Below are positions 67 to 34,896 of a stretch of 64,000 nt of DNA, in pieces. The stretch lies in IMG/VR virus record IMGVR_UViG_3300009506_000009, positions 34,894 to 98,893 of that record. One strand, written 5' to 3'. Position 1 is the first letter of the stretch; every line of letters begins with the position of its first letter. The stretch comes from a virus. The position numbers and the translations under genes were made by a program. The notes under the pieces are model-generated. The model searched no databases. It was given only the letters and a program-made list of their open reading frames with translations, and was not told the origin of the DNA.

Positions 67-246
67 ATGTACTTTATCTTTAATCTAAAAGCAACTAGTG
101 GTACTGCACACTATATTAAATGTGAAACCAGACAGGACCTTGAAGATCAGGTTGAATGGGCAATGAATCGAGAAGTTGCCTTCTTTGTTTCCCCTGATCT
201 TGAAACCGTTCGCAGGGTTGCGGGTGTTGAATTAGAAGAGTTTTAG
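67..246 (+). CDS. Small protein, unknown function
   Basis: A 59-aa protein. The ATG at 67 is chosen because AAGGAGATT sits just upstream; in-frame TTG and ATG at 49 and 52 lie in front of that site and are rejected. I recognise no family. The stop codon (244-246) overlaps the first bases of the RNA gene that follows, so the two are probably co-transcribed. Confidence 0.65.
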   Translation: MYFIFNLKATSGTAHYIKCETRQDLEDQVEWAMNREVAFFVSPDLETVRRVAGVELEEF

Positions 247-451
247 ATTGACCAGAGAACTCGTCGCTGTACGGCAGTGCCGTATAGAGGAACTTCAGGA
301 CTCCACTGCTAGAGGAAGGAGGCTAACGCCGATTGCACTTCCGAGGGAGCAAGCCAAACAGACCTAGCTGGAAAGCAGGGCAATGATGGTCGGGTTGGTG
401 CATAGGTAGATGACGAGATAGAACAGAATCCTGGGTAAGCTCAGTCAATCT
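245..451 (+). ncRNA. rnpB: Miniature RNase P RNA (type A-like)
   Basis: RNase P RNA is the catalytic RNA that trims 5' leaders from tRNA precursors. Seen here: AGATTGAC (245-252) pairs perfectly with GTCAATCT (444-451) as a P1 helix. GACCAGAGAACTCGTCGCTG resembles the E. coli 5' end. TACGGC/GCCGTA (270-284) forms a P3-like hairpin. AGAGGAACTTCAGGACTCC (286-304) matches conserved region I, GGAGCAAGCCAAACAG (346-361) the region before P15, and TAGGTAGATGACGAG followed by ACAGAATCCTGGGTAAG (403-439) conserved region V; CAGGA/TCCTG can form P4. The whole RNA is ~207 nt against ~350-400 nt in bacteria, and the specificity domain is reduced to about one stem-loop around GGCTAACGCC (321-330). It lies directly before tRNA-Asn at the head of the tRNA block. 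The identification is by eye; a covariance-model search would settle it. Confidence 0.75.
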
Positions 452-455
452 TTCA

Positions 456-529
456 CTGACATGTGGTATAATGGTATTATGTCCGGCTGTTAACCGGAAC
501 GATGTAGGTTCGAATCCTACCGTGTCAGC
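456..529 (+). tRNA. tRNA-Asn(GTT)
   Basis: Acceptor CTGACAT pairs with GTGTCAG (522-528). The anticodon stem TCCGG/CCGGA encloses loop CTGTTAA, giving anticodon GTT. The T arm is TAGG-TTCGAAT-CCTA. No CCA is encoded. It starts 4 nt after the RNase P-like RNA, so one primary transcript likely carries both. Confidence 0.95.
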
Positions 530-543
530 CTTTAGGAGGAACC

Positions 544-894
544 ATGGCGAAAGATCGAAACATCAGAAAGAAGACCCGCTTCAACCCATACAAGAGTTGG
601 GAAGGCGACTGTGAGAGCTTCTCAGATGCTAGTCGTCGCCAGTTTGCCGAAGAACAAGTGGACCCCCCACGCAATAGACATATTAGAAAAAAGAAGAAAC
701 TGATCTTCATTATGGCTACAGCCTATGGTACCCCAAAGTGGTACATGCCAAAGGGTGCCTGGAGAATAGGCAAGTATGAGAAGATGCGGGATGCTGAAAA
801 GGCTCTGGAGACCATGCAGAATAAACGCTGGCCTGGAGACTTCTACGAATTGAGAATCGAAGACAGGAGACCTGAGAGTGAAAAGACTGCGTAG
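544..894 (+). CDS. Basic protein, unknown function
   Basis: A 116-aa lysine- and arginine-rich protein with SD AGGAGG 5 nt before the ATG. The motif RNIRKK near the N-terminus recurs as RHIRKKKK at about residue 45, suggesting an internal duplication or two nucleic-acid contact patches. The C-terminal half has spaced aromatic and charged residues (YEKMRDAEKALETMQNKRW). The reading frame overlaps the next gene by 17 nt. No family recognised. Confidence 0.7.
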   Translation: MAKDRNIRKKTRFNPYKSWEGDCESFSDASRRQFAEEQVDPPRNRHIRKKKKLIFIMATAYGTPKWYMPKGAWRIGKYEKMRDAEKALETMQNKRWPGDFYELRIEDRRPESEKTA

Positions 895-1927
895 CTTTTT
901 AATTGGGATTGTAATCGGGCTGATCGTTGTGTATCTACTTTCATCCTGTAAGCCAGAAGAAGAGATCAAATCTATCCCACAGACTCTACCAAGGCAGTAC
1001 CAAGTAATCCTTCCATTAGCGATGAAGAATTATAGAGTTCCTACTATCGTTGCTGTTGAAGCAGAGACTCCTGCTGATCCCAATCAATACCTATGGATGG
1101 GGGATATTCTAAAAGTGTCATGTGGTGCTGAGAATACTGAACGGTATGGTATGTCGTACTGTACTGACAAGGTTAAAGGGTTCCCGGATGGAACACACAT
1201 CTGGTTACAGTTAAAGCAGGGACACTCCTGGTGGGTTACTCCAGCATGTAGACCTATACCAGAGAAGTATTGGGATGCCTGGGTTGAGCAGTTTGCTCTT
1301 GTTGTGATCCAGGAAATGGAAGACATTCTTGGTCCAGATGCAGTTTGGTATCTGTCGTATACAAATGAACCAGATACTTCTTTTGCAGGTTTGGGTGAGT
1401 GGCTCGGGTGTTGGGGTGAGACCTTTGAAGAAGGTCAATATTATGCTCAGTTCGCAAATCATGTAATCCCACAAATCCGGGCACGATATCCACATATTAG
1501 GCATGTTGTAGGTGAGTTTATTAATTATGGGTTGCCTTTTGCAGAGGGTGTAGCATCAACAATTACAGAGGCTGATGTTATCTCTTTTCATAGTTATAGT
1601 GGATGTGGCTGGAGCACAACAGGACTTGTTGAGCGTAAGATAGCTTGGTTCACAGAAAACTTTCCTGGTTTTCCCTTAGCTTTATCTGAGACAGGAATGA
1701 CCTATGATACCCCATCGGATGAATGTGATCTTCAGCAAGCAGAGTATGTAAAGTTTGTAACCAGCGATATTGATGTAGAAGCAGTGGGTTTATATACAGG
1801 CTGGCCTAACGGTTGGAAAAATACAGACTTGACAAGGTTTGATAAAGATGGTAAAATTGAACTTAAGCCGTCATATTTTGTTTACGAGTCACTACAGATA
1901 TCCAAGGGATGGGAACCTTGGAGATAA
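878..1927 (+). CDS. Predicted lipoprotein, clan GH-A-like glycoside hydrolase
   Basis: 349 aa. The N-terminus is a lipoprotein signal peptide: KRLR, a hydrophobic stretch and lipobox LLSSC with the cysteine at about residue 24. The stretch LPLAMKNY follows, typical of the linker in exported Chloroflexota proteins. The rest looks like a TIM-barrel glycosidase: SYTNEPDT carries the NEP acid/base glutamate (around residue 165) and ALSETGMTY the SETG nucleophile (around residue 270), with FHSYSG between. Known: retaining clan GH-A enzymes use such a pair of glutamates. Inference: a membrane-anchored enzyme made in the infected cell that may change the host surface. It could instead be a virion or lysis factor, but the lipobox argues against that. 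It overlaps the previous gene by 17 nt. Confidence 0.75.
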   Translation: MKRLRSFLIGIVIGLIVVYLLSSCKPEEEIKSIPQTLPRQYQVILPLAMKNYRVPTIVAVEAETPADPNQYLWMGDILKVSCGAENTERYGMSYCTDKVKGFPDGTHIWLQLKQGHSWWVTPACRPIPEKYWDAWVEQFALVVIQEMEDILGPDAVWYLSYTNEPDTSFAGLGEWLGCWGETFEEGQYYAQFANHVIPQIRARYPHIRHVVGEFINYGLPFAEGVASTITEADVISFHSYSGCGWSTTGLVERKIAWFTENFPGFPLALSETGMTYDTPSDECDLQQAEYVKFVTSDIDVEAVGLYTGWPNGWKNTDLTRFDKDGKIELKPSYFVYESLQISKGWEPWR

Positions 1928-1932
1928 ATAAT

Positions 1933-2004
1933 TGCCCTGTCGTACAACTGGCAGTATGCCTGACTCTGACTCAGGTGATCTAGGTTCAAATCCTAGCGGG
2001 GCGG
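1933..2004 (+). tRNA. tRNA-Gln(CTG)
   Basis: Acceptor TGCCCTG/CGGGGCG (T1-G72 and T6-G67 wobbles), D stem GTAC/GTAT, anticodon stem CCTGA/TCAGG with loop CTCTGAC (anticodon CTG), T arm CTAGG-TTCAAAT-CCTAG. No encoded CCA. It lies 5 nt after the glycosidase stop codon. Confidence 0.93.
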
Positions 2005-2007
2005 CTA

Positions 2008-2134
2008 GTGTATATAAGGTTCGTTACTAAGACGTATGCAGTGGAAGGTTGTTGGAGTTGCGTCCAAGAGGAAGCCTTTATCCGGGCACGTCGGGATACG
2101 GCATTCCACAAACCTCACTTCGAAGTATATACAC
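2008..2134 (+). ncRNA. Structured RNA of unknown class (RNA 1)
   Basis: The 127-nt gap between tRNA genes folds as nested helices. GTGTATATA (2008-2016) pairs perfectly with TATATACAC (2126-2134), AGGTT (2017-2021) with AACCT (2111-2115), and GTGGAA (2041-2046) with TTCCAC (2104-2109). Inside are hairpins TTGGA-GTTGCG-TCCAA (2052-2067) and TATCC/GGATA (about 2080-2098). This layered pairing with no credible reading frame points to a multibranched RNA. I cannot match it to a named class. Confidence 0.55.
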
Positions 2135-2136
2135 AA

Positions 2137-2233
2137 ACAGGCTAATAAAGGCAAGTCTCGATTGAGACAGGAACTGTATGGTAGCCACTACACACCGTAG
2201 ACCCGGAGACTCCCTCACCTTGCCTTGGCCTGT
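2137..2233 (+). ncRNA. Structured RNA of unknown class (RNA 2)
   Basis: Closing helices are ACAGGC (2137-2142) with GCCTGT (2228-2233) and AGGCAAG (2149-2155) with CTTGCCT (2219-2225). Within lies the palindrome GTCTCGATTGAGAC (2155-2168), a member of the operator-like family seen elsewhere in the window, so this could be an RNA hairpin, a protein site, or both. It ends 7 nt before tRNA-His. No known class recognised. Confidence 0.45.
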
Positions 2234-2240
2234 ATAACAT

Positions 2241-2314
2241 GGAGCCTATAGTATAACGGTTCAACATTCCTGACTGTGGATCAGGAGATACGGGTTCGAA
2301 TCCCGTTAGGCTCC
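2241..2314 (+). tRNA. tRNA-His(GTG)
   Basis: Anticodon stem CCTGA/TCAGG encloses CTGTGGA (anticodon GTG). Acceptor GAGCCTA/TAGGCTC, with an extra encoded G at -1 (2241) opposite C73 (2314), the hallmark of bacterial histidine tRNA. No CCA is encoded. Confidence 0.95.
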
Positions 2315-2326
2315 CAAGGAGTTACA

Positions 2327-2500
2327 ATGAGTAAATATCAGATCGAAGAAAACCCAGGTGATCTGCCTACAGTATTGATGGTTGGTACCTTTAGCATTGA
2401 TCAGCTTCAAGAGATTATTGCTGAGATGGAAGACTTGTATGCTTCCCAGGATACTGACTTTACTGATGAGATTGTTTCTCAGATGATGGAGGATCGCTAA
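2327..2500 (+). CDS. Small acidic protein, unknown function
   Basis: 57 aa from the ATG at 2327, preceded by AAGGAG. The longer frame upstream runs through tRNA-His and is rejected. The sequence is amphipathic (IDQLQEIIAEMEDLYAS, then TDEIVSQMMEDR), consistent with a small helical binding protein. Its TAA shares an A with the next ATG, so translation is likely coupled. Confidence 0.7.
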   Translation: MSKYQIEENPGDLPTVLMVGTFSIDQLQEIIAEMEDLYASQDTDFTDEIVSQMMEDR

Positions 2501-2910
2501 TGGCAGTTCTCGTAGGCAAGAATGCTGTAATCACCATTGACAACTCCAAACCGTTTTATACCACTGAGTTTGACTTGACGCCTATCAAGTATGTCAAAGA
2601 TGCTCTTCCAGAAGTTAGCATCACTGCTAATTTTGATGGTCTTGGTCCTTCATTAGACCTGTTCAGTTATGCTCAATACCATACAACCACGTTGTATTAC
2701 GAGACTGGAACATATTGGTTCTGCCACCGCAACAAGATGGAAGTATATACACGTGGTATGACAGTACTTGATAATACAGTTAGTATTGACTTCGAAGTTG
2801 TTCCTGGATCAGAAGTTGACCTAACAAACTATAGCTGGATTGCACGCTTCCTACGTTTCGTGTTTCGCCACAAAATGGGAAGAGTGGCAATTGAATACTT
2901 TACGAGGTGA
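2500..2910 (+). CDS. Phage protein, unknown function
   Basis: 136 aa, starting on the last base of the previous stop codon. The first hundred residues alternate beta-type segments (VITIDN, YYETGTYWF, NTVSIDFEVVPG); the C-terminus is basic (RFLRFVFRHKMGR). I see no catalytic motif. Confidence 0.65.
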   Translation: MAVLVGKNAVITIDNSKPFYTTEFDLTPIKYVKDALPEVSITANFDGLGPSLDLFSYAQYHTTTLYYETGTYWFCHRNKMEVYTRGMTVLDNTVSIDFEVVPGSEVDLTNYSWIARFLRFVFRHKMGRVAIEYFTR

Positions 2911-2912
2911 GT

Positions 2913-3185
2913 ATGCCTGTTATCTGGAAGTATGATCTTAGTGAAGTAGAGAGGCTAACGTATGTAGACATTCCAGGTCTGATACAGGTTTTGTCCGTTG
3001 GCACTCAGGATGATCAACCAGTTGTATGGGTTATGTGCCAGCCAAAAGAGCCAACGAAAAGGTACTTATTCTGGTATGCTCAAACAGGCCGTCCGTTTGA
3101 TCCAGACAAAGGTCTAAAGTATATTAATACAACTCAACACATGGGCGGTTTGTATGTAGCTCATTGGTTTTATATGCGGGTGTGA
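2913..3185 (+). CDS. Small protein overlapping tRNA-Gly
   Basis: 90 aa from ATG 2913, with GAGGTGAG directly in front; an in-frame GTG at 2907 lies inside that site and is rejected. Tryptophan- and tyrosine-rich, with no recognised family. The last ten bases, including the stop, are the first ten of tRNA-Gly(TCC), so translation and tRNA maturation draw on the same RNA segment. Confidence 0.65.
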   Translation: MPVIWKYDLSEVERLTYVDIPGLIQVLSVGTQDDQPVVWVMCQPKEPTKRYLFWYAQTGRPFDPDKGLKYINTTQHMGGLYVAHWFYMRV

Positions 3186-3246
3186 TGTAATGGTAACGTG
3201 CCGTCCTTCCAAGTCGGTCTTCGGAGTTCGAGTCTCCGCACCCGCA
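3176..3246 (+). tRNA. tRNA-Gly(TCC)
   Basis: Acceptor GCGGGTG/CACCCGC, anticodon loop CTTCCAA (anticodon TCC) on stem CCGTC/GTCGG with one T-T mismatch, T arm CGGAG-TTCGAGT-CTCCG, discriminator A. No CCA encoded. Its first ten bases are the 3' end of the preceding coding gene. Confidence 0.92.
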
Positions 3247-3302
3247 CTTTTCATGTAATGATAATACCCCTTAGGAGGCACTATCACTACACAAAACATC
3301 AT

Positions 3303-3373
3303 GCGGTATTAGTTTAGGGGTAAAACGAGTGCTTGCCAAGTACTAGTCAGCAGTTCAAATCTGCTATACCGCT
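3303..3373 (+). tRNA. tRNA-Gly(GCC)
   Basis: Acceptor GCGGTAT/ATACCGC, anticodon loop TTGCCAA (GCC) on stem AGTGC/GTACT, T arm AGCAG-TTCAAAT-CTGCT. No encoded CCA. The 56-nt gap before it contains AGGAGG but no downstream reading frame. Confidence 0.93.
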
Positions 3374-3401
3374 CTGGTAACCATTAGACAGGAGAGAGGA
3401 T

Positions 3402-3674
3402 ATGTCTGAAAAAGTGTTTGTTTTGGTGAGTGAAGAAGGGGATGTGTATGGTGTGTTCAAAGATAAGGAAAATCTTGAATGGGAAATCCTGCGAGCCGCA
3501 ATGGACGGGTATGACCGGGACCCGGAACTACCATCGCCAGAGTTTGCATCCTTCTGTCTGATCCCGAACTACTATTCAGAAAACTCATATGGAGTTTACG
3601 TTGCAGGTATGGGAAAACACCCTGAGCCTTTCCTTTGGGATGTTGTTTATCTAGAAGAGAGCACACTCTATTAA
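3402..3674 (+). CDS. Small protein, unknown function
   Basis: 90 aa preceded by AGGAGAGAGG. The N-terminus EKVFVLVSEEGDVYGVF resembles the strand-turn-strand opening of many small phage proteins that read 'value, then context'. No family recognised. The stop abuts tRNA-Arg with one base between. Confidence 0.7.
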   Translation: MSEKVFVLVSEEGDVYGVFKDKENLEWEILRAAMDGYDRDPELPSPEFASFCLIPNYYSENSYGVYVAGMGKHPEPFLWDVVYLEESTLY

Positions 3675-3675
3675 T

Positions 3676-3747
3676 GCCCTGGTAGTCGAGCGGATAAGAC
3701 GCTACCCTGCGAAGGTAGAAGCGAAGGTTCGAGTCCTTCCTGGGGCA
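3676..3747 (+). tRNA. tRNA-Arg(GCG)
   Basis: Acceptor GCCCTGG/CTGGGGC, D stem GTC/GAC, anticodon stem CTACC/GGTAG with loop CTGCGAA (GCG), T arm GAAGG-TTCGAGT-CCTTC, discriminator A. Anticodon GCG would read CGC directly, and CGT only if A34 or wobble pairing allows, which is unusual because bacterial hosts normally use ICG. No CCA encoded. Confidence 0.9.
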
Positions 3748-3748
3748 C

Positions 3749-3777
3749 TTGACAACTTCCGGCTCGTATGGTAAAAT
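3749..3777 (+). promoter_or_regulatory. Sigma70-type promoter
   Basis: TTGACA (3749-3754), a 17-bp spacer, TAAAAT (3772-3777). The -10 box overlaps the start of the HNH reading frame, and transcription should begin near 3784, inside a long hairpin (GCCGGG/CCCGGC with GGGG/CCCC and TGGAG/CTCCA inside, about 3783-3833). It can serve tRNA-Cys and the genes downstream. Confidence 0.75.
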
Positions 3778-4085
3778 ACTTTTGCCGGGTTGGGGAAACT
3801 CTGGAGCGAGTCACTCCACCCCTCCCGGCTCCACGATATGGCGCAGATACCGAACGGTCAGAGTATTCTTGTATCATCTGTGGTTGGAATGAGATTAGTC
3901 CATCACTAGGATATTCTCCCCTACAAATAGACCATATCAACGGAGATTGGACGGATAACTCTCCAAAAAATCTTAGAGTTATATGTCCTAATTGTCACAG
4001 CCTCACGCCAACATACGGTTCTCAGAATACAACAATAGAGAAAAACGCAAGAGGTAGAGGCTTACAAAGAGAGTACAAGGGGTAA
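3768..4085 (+). CDS. HNH endonuclease (homing-type), possibly 5'-truncated
   Basis: 105 aa. The nuclease core is clear: CIICGW, then LQIDHINGDWTDNSPKNLR, then CPNCHS, i.e. zinc ligands plus the catalytic DHINGD. Such small HNH proteins nick or cut DNA and often spread as free-standing homing genes. The only usual start in frame is the ATG at 3768, but it has no SD and sits upstream of the promoter's start point, so the first ~30 residues may not be real. The stop lies inside the acceptor arm of tRNA-Cys. Confidence 0.75.
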   Translation: MVKYFCRVGETLERVTPPLPAPRYGADTERSEYSCIICGWNEISPSLGYSPLQIDHINGDWTDNSPKNLRVICPNCHSLTPTYGSQNTTIEKNARGRGLQREYKG

Positions 4086-4148
4086 GAGCCATATGGAGAG
4101 GCTACGGTCTGCAAAACCGTTTAAGGAGTTCGATTCTCCATTACCCCT
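4079..4148 (+). tRNA. tRNA-Cys(GCA)
   Basis: Acceptor GGGGTAA/TTACCCC, anticodon stem ACGGT/ACCGT with loop CTGCAAA (GCA), T stem GGAG/CTCC with a mismatch at 49-65, discriminator T. No CCA. It shares seven bases with the HNH gene. Confidence 0.92.
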
Positions 4149-4159
4149 CTGGAGAAACT

Positions 4160-4342
4160 ATGTGGTTAAACTTAAAGCTCTGGTTAGAAGAATGGTGGAT
4201 ACTAATGTATAATTGGTATCGCTTAAAGAAGATCAACTACTTGATGTGGAAGCTTGATCGTCTAATGAAAAAGCATATTGTGGTTGAAGGTGACTTTAAA
4301 GTGAGTGAAGAACAGGAGAGTAGTAATGAGTCGAAGCAATAA
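4160..4342 (+). CDS. Small tryptophan-rich amphipathic protein
   Basis: 60 aa with GGAGAA before ATG 4160. The first 40 residues alternate W/L/Y with K/R (WLNLKLWLEEWW, LMWKLDRLMKK), fitting a membrane-surface helix; the tail is acidic. Start and end overlap neighbours tightly. No family known. Confidence 0.6.
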   Translation: MWLNLKLWLEEWWILMYNWYRLKKINYLMWKLDRLMKKHIVVEGDFKVSEEQESSNESKQ

Positions 4343-4475
4343 AGAAATCAAACGGTTGGTGTCTGATGCGGCCTTGATAGTTGCTGGAATGGTTTTGTTT
4401 GTGTATGGTTTTGTGTCCAAAGACCCGTATGTGGCTTTTGGCGGGGCTGTTTGTTTTATTGTGGGGTTAATATAG
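4326..4475 (+). CDS. Small two-helix membrane protein
   Basis: 49 aa starting at ATG 4326 (SD GGAGAG), overlapping the previous gene by 17 nt. After a basic N-terminus (SRSNKEIKR) come two hydrophobic stretches, AALIVAGMVLFVYGFV and VAFGGAVCFIVGLI, split by SKDPY. Likely an inner-membrane hairpin; function unknown. Confidence 0.65.
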   Translation: MSRSNKEIKRLVSDAALIVAGMVLFVYGFVSKDPYVAFGGAVCFIVGLI

Positions 4476-4518
4476 TGTGCCTATATCGACTCCCACTTGC
4501 GTCTCTAGGAGTTTAGTA

Positions 4519-4716
4519 ATGGCAGGAGAAAATATAGAACTAGGGTTGACGTGCATTAACGATGAGTTTCAGGATGCAGATGCGGTTGCCTTTGAAGACG
4601 ATCATGGTTTGCTTATTAGCTTATCCCACGATACGTACATCCGAATTGAGCCACAGGTGTTCCCAAAGCTGATCGCACTGATGGCAGAAACAATGGATGG
4701 GATGGTAGCCTTTTAA
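4519..4716 (+). CDS. Small acidic protein, unknown function
   Basis: 65 aa from ATG 4519, preceded by AGGAGTTTAGTA; an in-frame GTG at 4477 lacks an SD. Contains LLISLSHDTYIRIEP and a C-terminal amphipathic helix (FPKLIALMAETMDGM). The stop is 9 nt before tRNA-Ser. No family recognised. Confidence 0.65.
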   Translation: MAGENIELGLTCINDEFQDADAVAFEDDHGLLISLSHDTYIRIEPQVFPKLIALMAETMDGMVAF

Positions 4717-4725
4717 TAATCGTAT

Positions 4726-4812
4726 GGAGTCGTGACAGAGTACGGTAATGTGCCCGGTTGCTACCCGGAGACCATGGGAAACCATGCGGAGGTTCAAATC
4801 CCCCCGGCTCCG
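4726..4812 (+). tRNA. tRNA-Ser(GCT)
   Basis: Type II tRNA of 87 nt. Acceptor GGAGTCG/CGGCTCC, anticodon loop TTGCTAC (GCT), long variable arm with CATGG/CCATG stem, T loop TTCAAAT. No CCA encoded. Confidence 0.92.
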
Positions 4813-4859
4813 CTGATGATTGTAGTATGAAGATGTTCGAAACTAACATAAGGAAAATC

Positions 4860-4934
4860 ATGTTTTACTTTAACACTCAGAGCTTATCCATAGCTAAATC
4901 CCAATTGCCACTACTTGTGGAGTTTTTGGTTTGA
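4860..4934 (+). CDS. Possible 24-aa peptide
   Basis: ATG 4860 follows AAGGAAAATC; the frame could also begin at ATG 4827 (36 aa). It ends just before an operator-like palindrome, GTCTCGATTGATAC (4943-4956), and a terminator. Leader peptide or chance frame; the sequence cannot decide. Confidence 0.25.
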   Translation: MFYFNTQSLSIAKSQLPLLVEFLV

Positions 4935-4964
4935 GTGGATAAGTCTCGATTGATACAATGATTG

Positions 4965-4990
4965 GACCACCCAGGCCGGATGGTCTTTTT
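4965..4990 (+). terminator. Intrinsic terminator
   Basis: GACCA...TGGTC hairpin with a GC-rich loop, followed by TTTTT. It closes the transcript of the tRNA-Ser block before the promoter at 5001. Confidence 0.7.
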
Positions 4991-5000
4991 ATTTGGAACC

Positions 5001-5029
5001 TTGACAACTGAATAGTAATGTGGTAAACT
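5001..5029 (+). promoter_or_regulatory. Sigma70-type promoter
   Basis: TTGACA (5001-5006), 17-bp spacer, TAAACT (5024-5029). Expected start point near 5036, which is exactly a GTG codon opening the next small gene. Confidence 0.7.
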
Positions 5030-5035
5030 ATACTC

Positions 5036-5128
5036 GTGACGAAAAACAAACTCTTTCTCATTATTGCAATCTGCATCTTTCTAGGTCTCAGCCTGCTAGG
5101 TGCAATCTCATATCTGATGTTTTCTTAG
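5036..5128 (+). CDS. 30-aa single-span membrane peptide, leaderless
   Basis: GTG at 5036 coincides with the predicted transcription start, so the mRNA would be leaderless. Sequence: basic TKNK, then one hydrophobic span (LFLIIAICIFLGLSLLGAI) and a short tail. Followed 10 nt later by tRNA-Met. Function unknown; it may be a holin-like or regulatory micropeptide. Confidence 0.5.
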   Translation: MTKNKLFLIIAICIFLGLSLLGAISYLMFS

Positions 5129-5138
5129 CAATAATATT

Positions 5139-5211
5139 GGAGGCGTAGCGCAAAGGTTAGAGCACCCGTCTCATAAACGGTAGGTTGAGAGTTCGATTCT
5201 CTCCGCCTCCA
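5139..5211 (+). tRNA. tRNA-Met(CAT), elongator or Ile2
   Basis: Acceptor GGAGGCG/CGCCTCC, anticodon loop CTCATAA (CAT), T arm GAGAG-TTCGATT-CTCTC, discriminator A. A paired G1-C72 excludes an initiator tRNA. CAT could also be an Ile2 tRNA modified by TilS; sequence alone does not tell. No CCA. Confidence 0.9.
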
Positions 5212-5222
5212 CAGGAGTTCTT

Positions 5223-5735
5223 ATGATCATTGGATGTGTATATAGGCTAGAAGCAAGTGGTGATGTGAATGGTATCCCGCTGTTTCTGTATGATAACGGA
5301 AGTACCGTGGATGTCCGTGGTTTCCCTAACATAACGTCTGACGACATGAAGTTCGTGCTCTCATGGGCGTCCAAACCAACGGATGATGATATAGAGATCG
5401 TGTGGAAAAATATCTCAGCACCATACTTTTTGCACCTGTTCCGTGATCAGTATGTATCTGAGGTCCCAATTCAATACGTGCATATTGGTATCTTCAAACA
5501 TCTGGCGTACAAGTATCCGCCAGCAATGGTACAGCACGATGTCACCAGCCAATTAAAATCCCTTGATGCATATTGGTCAAACGTGGCACGGCAGGTTGCT
5601 GGACTAACTAACTTACAACAGTGGACCATGCTTGAGCTTCGTGACCTGAAATATACACCGGAGCAGATTGCTAATGAGCTTGGGATCGATGAAGCTGTTG
5701 TGATCGAGTACTTCAAAACAAACATATTGGTATAG
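5223..5735 (+). CDS. Protein with C-terminal helix-turn-helix
   Basis: 170 aa, SD CAGGAG. The last 45 residues (LQQWTMLELRDLKYTPEQIA, then NELGIDEAVVIEYF) have the pattern of a sigma-region-4/LuxR-type HTH, suggesting DNA binding. The first ~120 residues are unknown. It may be a transcriptional regulator embedded in the tRNA block. Stop codon 1 nt before tRNA-Lys. Confidence 0.65.
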   Translation: MIIGCVYRLEASGDVNGIPLFLYDNGSTVDVRGFPNITSDDMKFVLSWASKPTDDDIEIVWKNISAPYFLHLFRDQYVSEVPIQYVHIGIFKHLAYKYPPAMVQHDVTSQLKSLDAYWSNVARQVAGLTNLQQWTMLELRDLKYTPEQIANELGIDEAVVIEYFKTNILV

Positions 5736-5736
5736 A

Positions 5737-5810
5737 GCCGTCATAGTTTAATGGATAAAACAGACGCCTTTTAAGCGATCAGACTGAGGGTTCGAGTCCT
5801 TCTGGCGGCA
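5737..5810 (+). tRNA. tRNA-Lys(TTT)
   Basis: Acceptor GCCGTCA/TGGCGGC, anticodon loop CTTTTAA (TTT) on a stem with one A-A mismatch, T arm GAGGG-TTCGAGT-CCTTC, discriminator A. No CCA encoded. Confidence 0.9.
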
Positions 5811-5831
5811 TAAAAACTATGGAAATCATAA

Positions 5832-6113
5832 ATGCACATTGACAAGTTCAACAGCTACGTGCGTATTCTAAGCACACGTTTTTGGGTAAGACATTGGTAC
5901 AACTTCTATGATGTGCCCCTGTTTACTGACCACAAGCGCACTATGGCGATCAGCCTAATTGACCTTGTTGATCGTAAGAATATGTTTGAAGAAGTCTGTC
6001 GGGACTTAAAGAAAGCCGGGTTTGATGTCCGAGTAAAGCTGGATGCAACTAGCCCCTACCCATATGCGGAGTTGGTTGCGTTTGTAGAAAGAACAGATTG
6101 GCCTATAGTGTAA
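5832..6113 (+). CDS. Small protein overlapping tRNA-Gln
   Basis: 93 aa; ATG 5832 has only a weak GGAAA upstream. Features a basic aromatic N-terminus (YVRILSTRFWVRHWYNFY) and a C-terminal part VRVKLDATSPYPYAELVAFV. The last 15 nt are the 5' end of tRNA-Gln(TTG). No family recognised. Confidence 0.6.
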   Translation: MHIDKFNSYVRILSTRFWVRHWYNFYDVPLFTDHKRTMAISLIDLVDRKNMFEEVCRDLKKAGFDVRVKLDATSPYPYAELVAFVERTDWPIV

Positions 6114-6170
6114 TGGTTATCACGTCTGCCTTTGAAGCAGAAGACCCAGGTTCGAACCCTGGTGGGCCAG
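6099..6170 (+). tRNA. tRNA-Gln(TTG)
   Basis: Acceptor TGGCCTA/TGGGCCA, D stem GTG/CAC, anticodon stem TCTGC/GCAGA with loop CTTTGAA (TTG), T arm CCAGG-TTCGAAC-CCTGG, discriminator G. No CCA. Its 5' 15 nt are shared with the preceding gene. Confidence 0.95.
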
Positions 6171-6200
6171 CTAACCTATCAATGAGTGAAGGAGATTAAA

Positions 6201-6728
6201 ATGATTAACCCAAATCAAGGAAGCGGTGTGAAAATCCAGATTAACAGTTTAGCGGCATTAGAACGTCTGCTCGGTGATGATGCGAAAATGGAGATCGAAG
6301 TTCGGCAGTCTGTTGTAGAAGCTTTTGCTCGTGGTTTTGTAAAGAACATTGCGAATGCTGATGCTGTTGCTAAGGTTATCGAAGACCTTAAAGACTTTGT
6401 GAAACGGGAAGTTGTGGAAGAGACATCTAACCAGATGGCAATGGCTGGTATTGTCAAGGATGGGTCCTGGTATCAGACGAAGTTGAAACTTACCGATACT
6501 GCTGAAGAGAAGATCGCATCGGAAGTACGTATACAAGTGTATGATAATATACGTAAAGCAATCAGCGAAATGAATATTGATGAGATTGTAACCCGTTATG
6601 TTACGGATGCTATCCGTCGTGAAGTCAACCATCAGGTCAAGGCTATCACCCAATCCACTGTTATGGCATCCCTACAGTTGGCAATGGATCAAGCCTTAGA
6701 TACTGACCCGGTAGATAATGAAGATTAA
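6201..6728 (+). CDS. Helical protein, unknown function
   Basis: 175 aa from ATG 6201 with AAGGAGATT in front (in-frame GTG 6186 sits before the SD and is rejected). Almost entirely charged amphipathic helix with heptad spacing (EVRQSVVEAFARGFVKNI, KVIEDLKDFVKREVVEET), suggesting a coiled-coil oligomer. Overlaps the next gene by 11 nt. Confidence 0.7.
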   Translation: MINPNQGSGVKIQINSLAALERLLGDDAKMEIEVRQSVVEAFARGFVKNIANADAVAKVIEDLKDFVKREVVEETSNQMAMAGIVKDGSWYQTKLKLTDTAEEKIASEVRIQVYDNIRKAISEMNIDEIVTRYVTDAIRREVNHQVKAITQSTVMASLQLAMDQALDTDPVDNED

Positions 6729-6945
6729 ACTTACGCTTTACAATGATGATGGTCAGCCTGTTGCATCTGCTACTCTGAAGTCCGGGGTAGTGGATGCCAA
6801 CGGTAATATCTTGACAGAAGAAGCCCTACGAAGTATGGTAGGTAGTATAAATACCAGCGTGGCGGAACTGGTTTACGCAGAGGACTTAAAACCCTCCGAC
6901 TCCGGTCATGTGGGTTCGACTCCCACCGCTGGTACAAAGGATTAG
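6718..6945 (+). CDS. Small protein whose 3' end contains tRNA-Leu
   Basis: 75 aa. Residues 1-43 (KIKLTLYNDDGQPVASATLK, then SGVVDANGNILTEEALRSMV) look like a beta-rich protein; residues ~44-75 are the sense translation of tRNA-Leu(TAA). The stop at 6943-6945 falls one base before the next ATG, as in coupled genes. Either the tRNA sits inside a living gene or it replaced the gene's original 3' end. Confidence 0.55.
   Translation: MKIKLTLYNDDGQPVASATLKSGVVDANGNILTEEALRSMVGSINTSVAELVYAEDLKPSDSGHVGSTPTAGTKD
6853..6934 (+). tRNA. tRNA-Leu(TAA)
   Basis: 82-nt type II tRNA. Acceptor ACCAGCG/CGCTGGT, loop CTTAAAA (anticodon TAA) on GAGGA/CCCTC with one A-C pair, variable arm, T arm GTGGG-TTCGACT-CCCAC, discriminator A. 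No CCA. It lies wholly within an open reading frame. Confidence 0.92.
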
Positions 6946-6946
6946 C

Positions 6947-7378
6947 ATGGACATTCTCGAAGTGCAGTATGGTATCATCGTCCATCAGGTAAACTTACAA
7001 GGTAAGATGGGTGCTGGTCTTGCAAAGCAAGTCAAAGAAACGTACCCACTCAATTATGAGAAATACCTGGAAGATTATCATGTACGTGTCCTTGGGGATG
7101 TCTTGGTTGTGACTGTAAAAAAGAACCTTCACATTGCTAACCTGTATGGACAAGAGAGCGTTGGTGCAGGTCTCCAAACAGATTATACCGCTATAGCAAC
7201 AGGTCTCGACTTGATTGCTCATTGGTCTGAGCATGCACAGCTTCCTGTATATATTCCAGAGAAGATGGGATGCGGCCTCGGTGGTGGAAACTGGAATGCA
7301 ATCAAAGCGATTATTAAAGATACAATTCCGTATGCCTGGATCGTTTCTTTAGAAAGGTCTACACCGTATAGATTATGA
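6947..7378 (+). CDS. Macro domain protein (ADP-ribose binding)
   Basis: 143 aa, about the size of a lone macro domain. Seen: IVHQVNLQGKMGAGLAKQVK (the N-x3-MGxGxA loop), ANLYGQE, and MGCGLGGGNW with the GxGGG loop that binds phosphates. Known macro domains hydrolyse ADP-ribose 1''-phosphate or remove ADP-ribose from macromolecules. Inference: clearing of ADP-ribose products, either from RNA repair or from host NAD-based defence. SD AAAGGA; ATG 6947. Confidence 0.85.
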   Translation: MDILEVQYGIIVHQVNLQGKMGAGLAKQVKETYPLNYEKYLEDYHVRVLGDVLVVTVKKNLHIANLYGQESVGAGLQTDYTAIATGLDLIAHWSEHAQLPVYIPEKMGCGLGGGNWNAIKAIIKDTIPYAWIVSLERSTPYRL

Positions 7379-7845
7379 CTCCTATACCACAACCTGCTAA
7401 CTTGTCGTACATTGTAGGTTCTCACTTTAACCATATTGAAGTATGTACTGCATTCCCACGCACACGAGAAGATATCTCCAGGATGTCTTGTGGTCACATT
7501 TCGGTAGAGAGTGTAACGTATGATGATAGGCCAGATGGCACAGTTATGTGGGTAAAACCTGGAACAGCAGGAGATATTATTAGAAGCGGTACTGTTACAT
7601 ACTTTGCAATCTGTGACAGTCACAGTACACCTATCCTGGTAAATACATTCACACAGAAGTTTCAATTGCAGGAAGGTTGCATCTTTACATTGGCTCCGTT
7701 TGATGTTACTTTGGCTCCAACAGATGTAGTGGTAGGCACGTATCCATACAACGATTCGGGCCTAAACGAAATAGAGTGCATCTACTGTGGACAACCAAGG
7801 CGTCCAAATATACCGTGCCCACATTGTGGTGGGCGCATAGACTAG
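7375..7845 (+). CDS. Protein with C-terminal zinc ribbon
   Basis: 156 aa, starting in an ATGA overlap with the macro gene. The tail CIYCGQPRRPNIPCPHCGG is a classic CxxC-x(9)-CxxC rubredoxin-type zinc knuckle. The N-terminal ~125 residues are beta-rich and unrecognised. The last base is also the first base of tRNA-Leu(CAA). Confidence 0.7.
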   Translation: MTPIPQPANLSYIVGSHFNHIEVCTAFPRTREDISRMSCGHISVESVTYDDRPDGTVMWVKPGTAGDIIRSGTVTYFAICDSHSTPILVNTFTQKFQLQEGCIFTLAPFDVTLAPTDVVVGTYPYNDSGLNEIECIYCGQPRRPNIPCPHCGGRID

Positions 7846-7926
7846 CCAGCATGGTGGAATTGGCAGACACAGTGTCCTCAAAAGGCACCGGGTAAAACCG
7901 TGAGAGTTCGACTCTCTCTGCTGGCA
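7845..7926 (+). tRNA. tRNA-Leu(CAA)
   Basis: Type II tRNA, 82 nt. Acceptor GCCAGCA/TGCTGGC, anticodon stem GTGTC/GGCAC with loop CTCAAAA (CAA), short variable arm, T arm GAGAG-TTCGACT-CTCTC, discriminator A. No CCA. It is the last of the 13 clustered tRNAs. Confidence 0.95.
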
Positions 7927-7938
7927 CAAAGGATCAAC

Positions 7939-14623: not shown

Positions 14624-15814
14624 ATGGCAGACCTTTATATCCCAGGCAACCCATCAATAGATGAGGCAATAGAATACTTCGGCGCAGAAGCAATGAAGCA
14701 GGTCCAGACCCTGGTCTCTCGACCAGAGTTTACTCATGTGCGCCTAATGCGGGATGGTCACCTTGGCTATCAGTCTATGCCAATCGGTGGGGTAACTGTA
14801 TCACATCGATATATTGCTCCTGGTGGGGCAGGGTTTGATATTGGGTGTGGTAATTGGGCTGGTAAAACAGAAGTTCATATGTCTTACTTAACCAGAGGTG
14901 ACCTGTATGAATTGGGGATCGAAATCTCTAAGAAGATTGCTATTGGTCTTGGTCAGGCTTATGGTACGTTCGCTGACCACCCACTGCTTCCAGACATCAT
15001 CCATGCAGTTAAGGATGCTCATATCAATATCACACCTGAAGTTATCATTAACCAGTTTGGTTCCGTTGGTGCAGGCAACCACTATATTGACCTGATGACA
15101 GACTCCGAAGGATATATCTGGATCGCTCTTCACTATGGCTCCCGTAAGCTTGGGCATACCATTGCTGATCACTACCTTAAGATGCTTGGAGCTAATGACG
15201 GTATGTTCTCGATGCCTGTATTCCTGGATACATGGTCGATGGTTGGTCAAGAGTACCTACGCCTTATGGAGCTTGCAGGTGAGTATGCTAGAGTATCACG
15301 CCGCTTGGTAGGTACAAAGATTGCTACGCAAATCCTTCAAGACACTGTGGTTGATGTAGTAGAGAACCACCACAACTACATCTGGCAGGAAGTACATCAT
15401 GGTGAAGCTGTCTATGTTACCCGCAAGGGTGCAACTCCCGTTCACCCAGGTGTACGTGCTTTCATCGGTGGCTCCATGGGTACGGACTCAATTATTGTGG
15501 AAGCAATTGACTGTGACGAAAACAACAAGACATTCCGCTCGGCTATGCATGGTGCTGGACGTACTATCAGCCGTGGTATGGCAAAGGGTAAGTTTACACG
15601 CAGTGGAGAAATGAAGCGTGCTCCACTAGTAACAAAGGAAATGATGAACGGCTGGATGAATACGGAAGGGATCATTCGGATTGGTGGTGGGGTTGACGAG
15701 TCACCACACTGCTACCGTAACTTGATCGAAGATGTGCTTCCTTATTACCCGCACCTTAAGGTTAAGGAAATCCTATCTCCAGTCGTAGTTATCATGAACC
15801 CTGATGAGCATTAA
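14624..15814 (+). CDS. rtcB: RtcB-type RNA ligase
   Basis: 396 aa. RtcB joins a 2',3'-cyclic phosphate or 3'-phosphate to a 5'-OH, using GTP and Mn2+, in tRNA splicing and repair. Seen: GFDIGCGNWAG (metal cysteine), QFGSVGAGNHYIDL, HYGSRKLGH, ENHHN, YVTRKGATPVHPG, GGSMGTDS and SAMHGAGRTISR with the histidine that is guanylated. Length is normal. It has its own promoter and terminator, so it is regulated as a single gene. With the tRNA block it likely mends tRNAs cut by host anticodon nucleases. Confidence 0.93.
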   Translation: MADLYIPGNPSIDEAIEYFGAEAMKQVQTLVSRPEFTHVRLMRDGHLGYQSMPIGGVTVSHRYIAPGGAGFDIGCGNWAGKTEVHMSYLTRGDLYELGIEISKKIAIGLGQAYGTFADHPLLPDIIHAVKDAHINITPEVIINQFGSVGAGNHYIDLMTDSEGYIWIALHYGSRKLGHTIADHYLKMLGANDGMFSMPVFLDTWSMVGQEYLRLMELAGEYARVSRRLVGTKIATQILQDTVVDVVENHHNYIWQEVHHGEAVYVTRKGATPVHPGVRAFIGGSMGTDSIIVEAIDCDENNKTFRSAMHGAGRTISRGMAKGKFTRSGEMKRAPLVTKEMMNGWMNTEGIIRIGGGVDESPHCYRNLIEDVLPYYPHLKVKEILSPVVVIMNPDEH

Positions 15815-15881: not shown

Positions 15882-16682
15882 ATGAAAAACGAACTCAGCC
15901 TACTAGAATATATGTACAACCTGGACCTGCTAGGGTTCAGGGGTTCCCTGCCACCTGTGGAAAATAAAATCTTCGAAGTGTATGCCGGGTCCTATGGTCG
16001 TAAGATCGCTGGTCTTATGTCAGATGTAGATATCGTGGCTGTGTATGTACCAGACTATGATGACCTTTACGGGCACCTTGTACCTGGGTTTGGTACAAAG
16101 ACAGAACGCTTCAAAGCCTTTCACACACCAGACTATATGGTGAAGCTCAATGCTGGTATGAAGAAAGTAGATGTAACAGCGTTTGATGTGGTACACTTCT
16201 TCAACTTACTACTCAAAGGTAGCCCAAATCATGTGGAATACCTATTCCTTGAGCCAGGACGTAAGCTCACAGAAGCTGGAAGTATCCTGCTGGCTAATCG
16301 TGATCTGTTTGTTACGCAAACACTGGTTACCAAGCTGATCGCCGCAGGCAAACACATCATGCTTAGAGAAAGCCCACACTCCATCAAAGACTACATGCTG
16401 GCTACCCGCTTCTTTATCTATGCGGTACACGCCTACAGCCATGGAACACTGATGCCTGAACTTACGGTTAAGCTAATGCGAGAGATTAGGGATACAAATG
16501 ATTGGGATTACGCTCAGATGTGGGCAAAATCTTTCTATGAGCATGTCACTCAACTAGTAGAGACAAAAGATACTTTTATCCCGAAAGAAACCAGTGAAGA
16601 GCTTGCTAATGAAGTCCTGCTACAGGTCCTACACGCTCATTGGAACTCACGAGCAAAGGAGAACTATGACTGCTACTCTTGA
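15882..16682 (+). CDS. Predicted nucleotidyltransferase
   Basis: 266 aa. AGSYGRKIAGLMSDVDIVAV carries the GS...SDxD signature of the polymerase-beta nucleotidyltransferase fold; the later HTPDYMVKLNAGMKKVDVTAFDVVHF supplies the third acid and resembles COG3541-type enzymes. The rest is helical. Substrate unknown (nucleotide or tRNA end are options). Leaderless start; overlaps recA by 17 nt. Confidence 0.8.
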   Translation: MKNELSLLEYMYNLDLLGFRGSLPPVENKIFEVYAGSYGRKIAGLMSDVDIVAVYVPDYDDLYGHLVPGFGTKTERFKAFHTPDYMVKLNAGMKKVDVTAFDVVHFFNLLLKGSPNHVEYLFLEPGRKLTEAGSILLANRDLFVTQTLVTKLIAAGKHIMLRESPHSIKDYMLATRFFIYAVHAYSHGTLMPELTVKLMREIRDTNDWDYAQMWAKSFYEHVTQLVETKDTFIPKETSEELANEVLLQVLHAHWNSRAKENYDCYS

Positions 16683-29275: not shown

Positions 29276-30664
29276 ATGCACTGGATACAAACCCCACAAG
29301 CAATACGTGACTTCGCCCTTATGCTCAGCATCGCTTTCGGTGCTGAGACCTGGGTGGTTGGGGGCGCATGCCGGGATACAGTCCTGGGTGACACCCCACA
29401 TGACATCGACATCGAGATCACTGGGTTGAGTGAGTACAACTTGACCCACTTGCCCTTCGCTCAGGTAATACCTGGGGGTGATCGGTTCGGTGTTTGGATT
29501 GTGACCTTCCACGATGAGACCTTCGAAGTGGCACTGCCACAAACCCGTGAGCGTGTGGGTGATGGTCACTCAGGCGAGATCGCACACATCGACCCGAACC
29601 TGCCCATTGAGCAGAGCTTAGCACGCCGAGACTTCACGGCTAACGCCATCGCCTGGAATGTGCTGACCGAAGAGATCGTTGATCCCTTCGACGGGATTGA
29701 TGACATCCACACTGGCATCTTACGGGCAGTGAATGCAGGCAACTTCGCTGATGACCCACTGAGAGTACTACGTGGTGTGCAGTTAGCATCACGCACTGGG
29801 CTGGTCCCTGATTGCCCAACGGTATCCGCCGCACAAGCACAGATCGGCGGGTTCAGTGCCCTGAGTTCGGATCGTGTGCGCCAGGAGTGGGTGAAGTGGG
29901 CGCAAGGTTCAACCCCTGCACTGGGCATCAAGTTCCTGGTCGAGTGTGGTTGGATCGAGTGCTTCCCATCGCTGAATGCCTTACGTGAGACGGAGCAGGA
30001 CCCCATCTGGCATCCCGAAGGGGACGCCTTGACCCACACAATCTTTGCCCTGGAAGTCCAGCCAAGCTGTGACCCCATCATCAACTGGGCAATCCTACTG
30101 CACGACATTGCCAAGCCACACTGCACGGCTACTCGTGAAGATGGACGCATCATCAGCCCCGGTCATGACCAACTGGGTGCGGACATGATCCCGGATGTAC
30201 TACGTGAGTTCGGGTTCGAGATACACGGACGCATCCCGGAGTGGGTGCAGGCAGTGCAGGCCATCGTTCGGGAGCACATGTGGGCGGCAAGCCTGAGTGG
30301 TGCACCTGGACACCGTGGTGTACGACGCTTAGCACGACGCTTAGCACCTGCCACTGTTCGTCAGTGGGGTGCTGTCTGCTTAGCAGATGTGGGTGGTCGA
30401 GCAATTGCTCGGAGTGAGAGAAACTCACTGATTGACACCATCCTGGATGTAGCCGAAGACGCTACCAGCCTGGGCATCGTAGATGACGGGCCTGCCAAGA
30501 TCGTCACGGGCAAGTTGCTGATCGAGCATGACATCATCGAGCCTGGAATTGCCATGGGCAAGCTGATCGACCTGCTGTTTGAGCTACAGCTAGACGGATG
30601 GTTCACGGACGAAGAGATCGGGCTACAGTTTGCACGTGAGTTAGTCGAGAACGTGCAGTTATGA
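29276..30664 (+). CDS. cca: CCA-adding enzyme / poly(A) polymerase family with HD domain
   Basis: 462 aa. Adds CCA to tRNA 3' ends. Seen: VVGGACRDTVLGDTPHDIDI (GG...DxD nucleotidyltransferase motif), SLARRDFTANAIAWN (RRD motif), DDPLRVLRGVQLASRTG, a C-terminal HD domain with ILLHDIAKPH and REHMWAASLSGAPGHR. Length and order match bacterial tRNA nucleotidyltransferases. None of the window's tRNA genes encodes CCA, so this gene closes a need. SD AAGGAG. Confidence 0.92.
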   Translation: MHWIQTPQAIRDFALMLSIAFGAETWVVGGACRDTVLGDTPHDIDIEITGLSEYNLTHLPFAQVIPGGDRFGVWIVTFHDETFEVALPQTRERVGDGHSGEIAHIDPNLPIEQSLARRDFTANAIAWNVLTEEIVDPFDGIDDIHTGILRAVNAGNFADDPLRVLRGVQLASRTGLVPDCPTVSAAQAQIGGFSALSSDRVRQEWVKWAQGSTPALGIKFLVECGWIECFPSLNALRETEQDPIWHPEGDALTHTIFALEVQPSCDPIINWAILLHDIAKPHCTATREDGRIISPGHDQLGADMIPDVLREFGFEIHGRIPEWVQAVQAIVREHMWAASLSGAPGHRGVRRLARRLAPATVRQWGAVCLADVGGRAIARSERNSLIDTILDVAEDATSLGIVDDGPAKIVTGKLLIEHDIIEPGIAMGKLIDLLFELQLDGWFTDEEIGLQFARELVENVQL

Positions 30665-34384: not shown

Positions 34385-34896
34385 TGACTGGTTGCACGAA
34401 TGTTTTCTTCGAGGATGACGGGTACTGCACAGCATGTGGTGAATACCACAAACGTGGCAAGCGCACAGATGCACCCACCTACGCAGTTAAGGAAGCGACA
34501 CCCGTCGCCGGGACAGAAGCAAGTGTCAAGCAGGTTGTCCGGGAAACCCTGGATAAACTGATTGCCATCTACGGGATTGCCTGTGGCTTGAAGTTCACCC
34601 GTGGTATGCGGGGTAGGGCTATCCACAACATGATAACAAAAGAGCACCGCTTTGTCCTGGGTGTGCCACGCCTGCTAGATGACTTCGAAACAGGCTTCAA
34701 AGAATACACGACTGTAGCTCCACTGGTGGGGTTAAATAATAGGGACCCACTAATGGGTATGGACGCAGTCAAGCAAACTGTATACCATGAGTATGCCCAC
34801 GTACTACAGGTGCACCGTGGTTTATACAAACCACGAGGGGATCATGACCTTAACTTTGTAAAGTGCTACCGTGAAGTTATGAAGGCCATGAGATAA
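34384..34896 (+). CDS. SprT-like zinc metallopeptidase
   Basis: 170 aa. Starts with a knuckle-like CTACGEYH. The active-site pattern TVYHEYAHVLQVHRG (HExxH) is followed by a downstream D/N-rich segment DHDLNFVKCYREVM, as in SprT/minigluzincin proteases. Possibly removes DNA-protein crosslinks, as SprT/Spartan proteins do. Confidence 0.7.
   Translation: MTGCTNVFFEDDGYCTACGEYHKRGKRTDAPTYAVKEATPVAGTEASVKQVVRETLDKLIAIYGIACGLKFTRGMRGRAIHNMITKEHRFVLGVPRLLDDFETGFKEYTTVAPLVGLNNRDPLMGMDAVKQTVYHEYAHVLQVHRGLYKPRGDHDLNFVKCYREVMKAMR

Follow-up and report, generated by a model that had tools for sequence, protein, structure and literature searches.

The 64,000-nucleotide (nt) stretch of DNA analysed here (i.e. 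the window) lies within a 98,893-bp viral record, IMGVR_UViG_3300009506_000009 (positions 34,894 to 98,893), which also carries genes for a terminase, a tail tape measure protein, a DNA polymerase, UvsX and ribonucleotide reductase. Near its start is a short RNA gene, described in an initial annotation as a miniature RNase P RNA, whose first nucleotide (A245) falls on the stop codon of a preceding small open reading frame (ORF) and which is followed by 13 tRNA genes spanning positions 457-7927. Comparative analyses indicate, with a probability of about 85%, that window positions 245-453 encode a phage RNase P RNA that has a type A catalytic domain (C-domain) and a specificity domain (S-domain) shrunk to a small stem-loop module.

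A search with Rfam models, proposed alongside the initial annotation, was performed for the RNase P RNA families. The bacterial class A model (i.e. RNaseP_bact_a, RF00010) aligned end to end with the RNA at a score of 42.9 bits (E 1.2e-11 with 1.5 kb searched; E 1.9e-13 in a whole-record search), was the top-scoring model of the RNase P clan on this RNA and had no other match in the whole record. A covariance model, R1, was built from 24 other phage sequences with the window left out. On the held-out window, R1 produced a match of 150.4 bits (E 9.9e-49). The RNase P identity was therefore supported by a model match far above noise, though below the curated Rfam cut-off.

Examination of the RNA confirmed a perfect 8-bp P1 helix and conserved blocks in type A order, as had been claimed (Table 1). 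The extent originally given as 245-451 was upheld at its start, while the 3' end was corrected to about 451-453. Type A features present in the window were regions I, IV and V in order, the bulged U of P4, the P6/P16/P17 pseudoknot and the GGU of L15. In P4, pairs were formed between 292 and U436, 293 and G435, 294 and G434, and 296..300 and 433..429, comprising 7/7 tested pairs and a closing A-U. By comparison with the E. coli P4, several of these pairs were changed on both sides with pairing retained. Region IV (349-361) starts with GCAAGCCAAACAG at 349, and P15 is formed by 354-355/397-398. The claimed reduction of the S-domain to about one stem-loop was also observed, with 41 nt between the P5 strands making up a two-storey stem-loop and the P6 strand. 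The layout of this module (i.e. stem, RA, hairpin, GNUNNNA, stem) recurs in compact relatives, which argues for a function; this comparison indicates that what is left of the S-domain has been conserved as a module and is not debris. P18 was absent from the window RNA and several relatives, and was present in some others.

Table 1. Coordinates of the predicted RNase P RNA, its structural elements and tRNA-related genes in the window.
Feature	Position	Strand	Remarks
Miniature RNase P RNA gene, whole	245..453	+	RF00010 match 247-453; R1 match 250-437
P1 5' strand, AGATTGAC	245..252	+	Perfect 8 bp with 444-451; other sequences in relatives
P2 5' strand, CTCGTC	260..265	+	Pairs with GACGAG 412-417; covaries, 94-96% of cells paired
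P3 hairpin, TACGGC AGT GCCGTA	270..284	+	P3 covaries
Region I and P4 5' strand, GAGGAA CU[U]CAGGA	287..300	+	Region I (GAGGAA) 287-292; P4 5' strand 292-300; bulged U295 (E. coli U69 equivalent)
P5 5' strand, CTCC	301..304	+	Pairs with GGAG 346-349
P6 5' strand, CTGCT	306..310	+	Pseudoknot with AGCAG 374-378 in L17
Reduced S-domain module	314..342	+	Stem GGAAG/CTTCC (314-318/338-342), internal loop GA/GATTGCA, hairpin GGC-TAAC-GCC (321-330)
P5 3' strand and conserved region IV, GGAGCAAGCCAAACAG	346..361	+	P15 5' CC at 354-355
P16, with P17 and L17	361..391	+	P16 GACC 361-364 / GGTC 388-391
L15, CGGGTTGGTGC	391..401	+	GGU for tRNA 3' CCA; P15 3' GG at 397-398
Region V and P4 3' strand, TCCTGGGT	423..436	+	Region V (ACAGAA) 423-428; P4 3' strand 429-436
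P1 3' strand, GTCAATCT	444..451	+	Pairs with 245-252
tRNA-Asn(GTT)	457..530	+	First of 13 tRNA genes; 5 nt after P1
RtcB-type tRNA ligase, accessory tRNA repair	14624..15814	+	phrog_1075, E 4e-63
RlaP-like RNA repair nucleotidyltransferase	15882..16682	+	PF10127, E 4.6e-5
tRNA nucleotidyltransferase (CCA-adding)	29276..30664	+	phrog_2244, E 1e-57

With the window excluded, 24 relatives were aligned by MAFFT without guidance, and covariation was examined at 34 pairs from P2, P3, P4, P5, P6, P15 and the S-module. Over these pairs, 88.8% of cells were paired as compared to 27-46% with the strands slid, and double-sided changes were observed at 29 pairs. The covariation score was 0.611 versus 0.07-0.11 in controls and was not attained by any shuffle. 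All eight P4 pairs formed in 24/24 relatives, with double-sided changes at six pairs; as P4 pairing had helped to select the 51 loci described below, the P4 rate alone is not independent, but 22 different P4 helices occurred. P6 was paired in 78% of cells and exhibited double-sided changes at all five pairs. Both the P4 and P6 pseudoknots had been left out of the search model. P5 and P16, whose positions were set by conserved blocks and were unused in selection, were fully paired in 32 and 33 of 35 sequences, respectively, as compared to 4% and 9% with strands swapped between phages. The P15 variants across phages were CC/GG, UC/GA, GC/GC and CU/AG. The sequence of P1 varied among phages and its mean length exceeded that of the swap controls. 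In a swap test on the window alone, P1, P2 and P6 did not stand out, so that support for these helices in the window comes from position and family. The pairing of P1, P4 and region V proposed for the window was kept in other phages with many compensatory changes. P1-P6, P15 and P16 covary strongly across phages, the P4 and P6 pseudoknots included.

Pattern scans detected the same RNA in >50 viral records, including the isolated, sequenced Stenotrophomonas phage DLP6 and three huge phages (595, 634 and 735 kb). One additional relative was obtained in the first pattern scan of viral contigs (i.e. region I, short S-domain, regions IV and V), and BLAST against annotated phages identified the 735-kb LR756501, the 634-kb LR745206 and phage DLP6, where the copy (KU682439, 105777-106024) is unannotated and inside a tRNA array. 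When the phage-type P15 block served as the pattern, 59 loci were obtained, and a second scan added more. Among the loci fetched, 51 have regions I and IV together with a region V partner that forms all seven tested P4 pairs; a few of the 51 are full-length RNAs. Three pattern-only hits (L060, L079 and L084) were rejected as lacking a CR-I/CR-V partner (conserved regions I and V) and scoring <10 bits. RF00010 recovered few relatives from the first pattern hits and missed the 735- and 634-kb phages, both of which were caught by BLAST and R1. Exactly one R1 match was observed in 19 of 21 whole records, the exceptions being a tandem copy (L002) and a split match (L202). The core between regions I and V spanned 135 nt in the smallest family members, the largest approached full size, and insertions occurred in the S hairpin.

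Cellular genomes were also scanned. A one-pattern scan of 84,980 prokaryote genomes returned 18 candidate loci, none of which was structured as the phage RNase P RNA; use of a single pattern means that a more diverged cellular relative is possible. These loci scored <=11.4 bits with R1 and none was an RNase P RNA, while the maximum R1 score on 16 bacterial genomes was 20.7 bits. These data bear on whether the gene is a decaying remnant or host contamination, i.e. a bacterial rnpB fragment in a viral contig. Such an origin would fit a window score under the Rfam cut-off and the full-length RNAs of some viral contigs (L039, L042, L070 and L076), but is highly improbable given the strong compensatory covariation, which counts against it for the whole family, the presence of the RNA in isolated phage DLP6, the occurrence of terminase in 23 of 46 records (the window record included) and the negative results for cellular genomes.

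The initial annotation placed 13 tRNA genes directly downstream of the RNA, and this arrangement was confirmed. tRNA genes were found within 6 kb at 41 of 49 phage RNA loci. The next tRNA started within 50 nt of the end of P4 at 14 of the 49 loci, usually at 14-24 nt with space for P1 only, and an upstream tRNA ended within 60 nt at 12. This short spacing suggests that cleavage of the downstream tRNA would free the 3' end of the ribozyme. It also fits a cis-acting element whose main substrates are the tRNAs joined to it in one transcript, with high local concentration making the S-domain unnecessary and with little trans activity. This alternative, a variant of the main explanation that overlaps with it, is unlikely: many loci (e.g. 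L023, L065 and L072) have no tRNA directly downstream and yet the RNA is equally conserved there. Homology, covariation-backed structure, phage context and tRNA-gene linkage are established parts of the explanation that the gene encodes a reduced RNase P RNA.

Several observations weigh against this explanation. The RF00010 score of 42.9 bits is under the Rfam gathering cut-off of 100, an expected consequence of the loss of most of the specificity domain. No excess folding stability was observed for the window RNA (z -1.05), folding energy being uninformative, and the free folding minimum differs from the constrained fold (-62.9 versus -58.5 kcal/mol). Regions II/III and canonical P9-P12 are absent from the window RNA; no full S-domain with P7-P12 was found and the class A model detects no equivalent for most of the 41-nt S-domain. 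Affinity for pre-tRNAs would therefore be low or otherwise achieved. None of the 13 window tRNA genes encodes a 3' CCA, which would have to be added before L15 could contact it; the phage has its own CCA-adding enzyme (29276-30664). Finally, RnpA (PF00825) was not found in the record of the window phage.

RnpA was similarly missing from 49 of 50 other phage records, many of which may be fragments from which the gene is missing by chance; the same search was positive in 10 of 14 control genomes. Because RnpA was not found in the window phage and these 49 others, the phage RNA most likely works with host RnpA. In LR745206 (634 kb), the RNA, at about 502 kb, is accompanied by an RnpA homologue (LR745206.1 positions 76444-76752; L199:1465-1812) with E 2.9e-13 and an intact RNR motif (AVDRNRIKR). 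A receptor-like ORF was noted by eye near this RnpA gene and the assembly deserves caution. The need to meet a host protein, together with loss of the S-domain, is also what would be expected of a non-catalytic decoy, whose catalytic-domain-like fold sequesters host RnpA or occupies pre-tRNAs and stops host tRNA processing. A decoy is improbable, as the conservation of regions I, IV and V, the P4 bulged U and the P15/GGU loop in very diverged phages goes beyond protein-binding needs, the tRNA-gene linkage suits processing and LR745206 supplies its own RnpA. As compared to the initial annotation, the analysis adds a widespread phage family, retention of the P6/L17 pseudoknot and the absence of RnpA from the window phage.

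For an active RNase P RNA, the following mechanism is proposed. The RNA, whose expression and catalysis we infer, would most likely be made within the phage tRNA-operon transcript, bind host RnpA and remove the 5' leaders of phage pre-tRNAs; a cut at tRNA-Asn would liberate its own 3' end. Contact of the L15 GGU with the tRNA 3' CCA and the P6 pseudoknot would partly offset the lost T-loop recognition. In place of the T-loop platform, the RNA would rely on its small S-module, on pairing with CCA and to some extent on tethering. When stripped of its S-domain, the E. coli C-domain retains activity, with the P6 contact needed and P18 dispensable (PMC5839562). As this pattern matches that of the phages, in which a covarying P6 and the CCA loop are kept and P18 is often dropped, the analogy makes an active RNA the likeliest outcome. 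A fuller proposal, which we favour by a modest degree, is of a distinct, widespread minimal RNase P class, where the S-domain is either replaced by a purpose-built module reading the tRNA elbow anew or rendered needless through tRNA-operon tethering, the phage-specific enzyme works with host RnpA and the gene is sometimes circularly permuted.

Several family members were unusual. In L082 (2243-2480, minus strand) and L202 (3070-3325, minus strand), region V and the P4 3' strand precede P2 and a few bases replace P1, such that these RNAs look naturally circularly permuted. L082 has a promoter-like TTGACT-16-TATACT just upstream and its seven P4 pairs form by inspection. A circular-permutation pattern gave ten hits, about seven of which were coding sequence; L202 was genuine. 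In L002, the complete RNA is preceded in tandem by a truncated second RNase P-like RNA (3418-3545, minus strand), which scored 42.7 bits over model positions 18-150 and has no region V; 35 tRNAs and a GOLLD RNA lie beside it. In four huge phage records (L039, L042, L043 and L076; 267-481 kb), the RNase P RNA seems to be of full length and includes regions II/III, with terminase present and RnpA absent. In L064 (28-340, minus strand) and L202 (3070-3299, minus strand), small ORFs seem to begin within the S-domain hairpin, and ribozyme and ORF may overlap. The RNA match was in two pieces in L035 (7770-8191) and L038 (2385-2735), as if there were an insertion near P18/P2. In the window itself, positions 2005-2241, between tRNA-Gln and tRNA-His, contain two long complementary pairs (i.e. 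GTGTATATA/TATATACAC, and ACAGGC/GGCCTGT with AAGGCAAG/CTTGCCTT), with a fold z of -1.6 and no Rfam match; this is possibly another structured RNA.

RNase P RNA is among the few near-universal ribozymes, and its minimal requirement has long been debated, with bacterial work mainly on engineered RNAs. The phage family provides dozens of natural, strongly diverged minimal RNAs of ~200 nt that are directly transcribable and assayable, and isolated phage DLP6 opens genetics on the RNA. To tRNAs, repair and CCA addition as means by which phages control translation, the RNA would add the first tRNA maturation step, and it explains unannotated gaps in the tRNA arrays of large phages. Phages figure as sources of RNase P substrates in a 2024 review. 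In the open-access papers covered (including 2016 and 2024 reviews, a 2026 evolution paper and a huge-phage paper; subscription papers and preprints being outside this scope), phage-encoded RNase P RNA was unreported, and open-access literature pairing DLP6 with RNase P likewise held no report of one. The family therefore appears to be undescribed. We regard it as a reduced class of RNase P RNA that is new, as is the kind of genome in which it occurs.

Bacterial type A RNAs (i.e. RF00010, E. coli M1 RNA) share with the phage RNAs the order and sequence of regions I, IV and V, P1-P5, the P4 bulged U, the P6/P16/P17 pseudoknot and a P15 with GGU for CCA. The window RNA has a length of ~207 nt as compared to 340-420 nt for bacterial type A (PMC4919922). 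Unlike the latter, it is phage-encoded, lacks regions II/III, P9-P12 and P18, and has an S-domain consisting of one conserved module. A catalytic-domain-only RNase P RNA of Pyrobaculum was reportedly described by Lai et al. in 2010. This archaeal RNA has been called type P, within a classification that divides bacterial RNAs into types A, B and C and counts M and the Pyrobaculum type among the archaeal ones (PMC4919922). Compared by description only, the phage and Pyrobaculum RNAs have both lost nearly all of the specificity domain; the Pyrobaculum RNA, however, is archaeal with archaeal proteins, whereas the phage RNAs have bacterial features (i.e. P6/P16/P17 and the L15 GGU) and carry a conserved module in place of the lost domain. 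Candidate phyla bacteria have diverged RNase P RNAs with sub-cut-off scores and missing helices, some being without P12, and the CCA-binding motif is lacking in 23 of 35 (PMC8172020). Those RNAs are reduced by single helices, whereas the phage RNAs keep the CCA motif and lose most of the S-domain. The engineered E. coli C-domain resembles the phage RNAs in removal of the S-domain and in an activity that depends on the P6 contact and not on P18. That construct is man-made, whereas the phage RNAs are natural, with a covarying P6 and an S-module.
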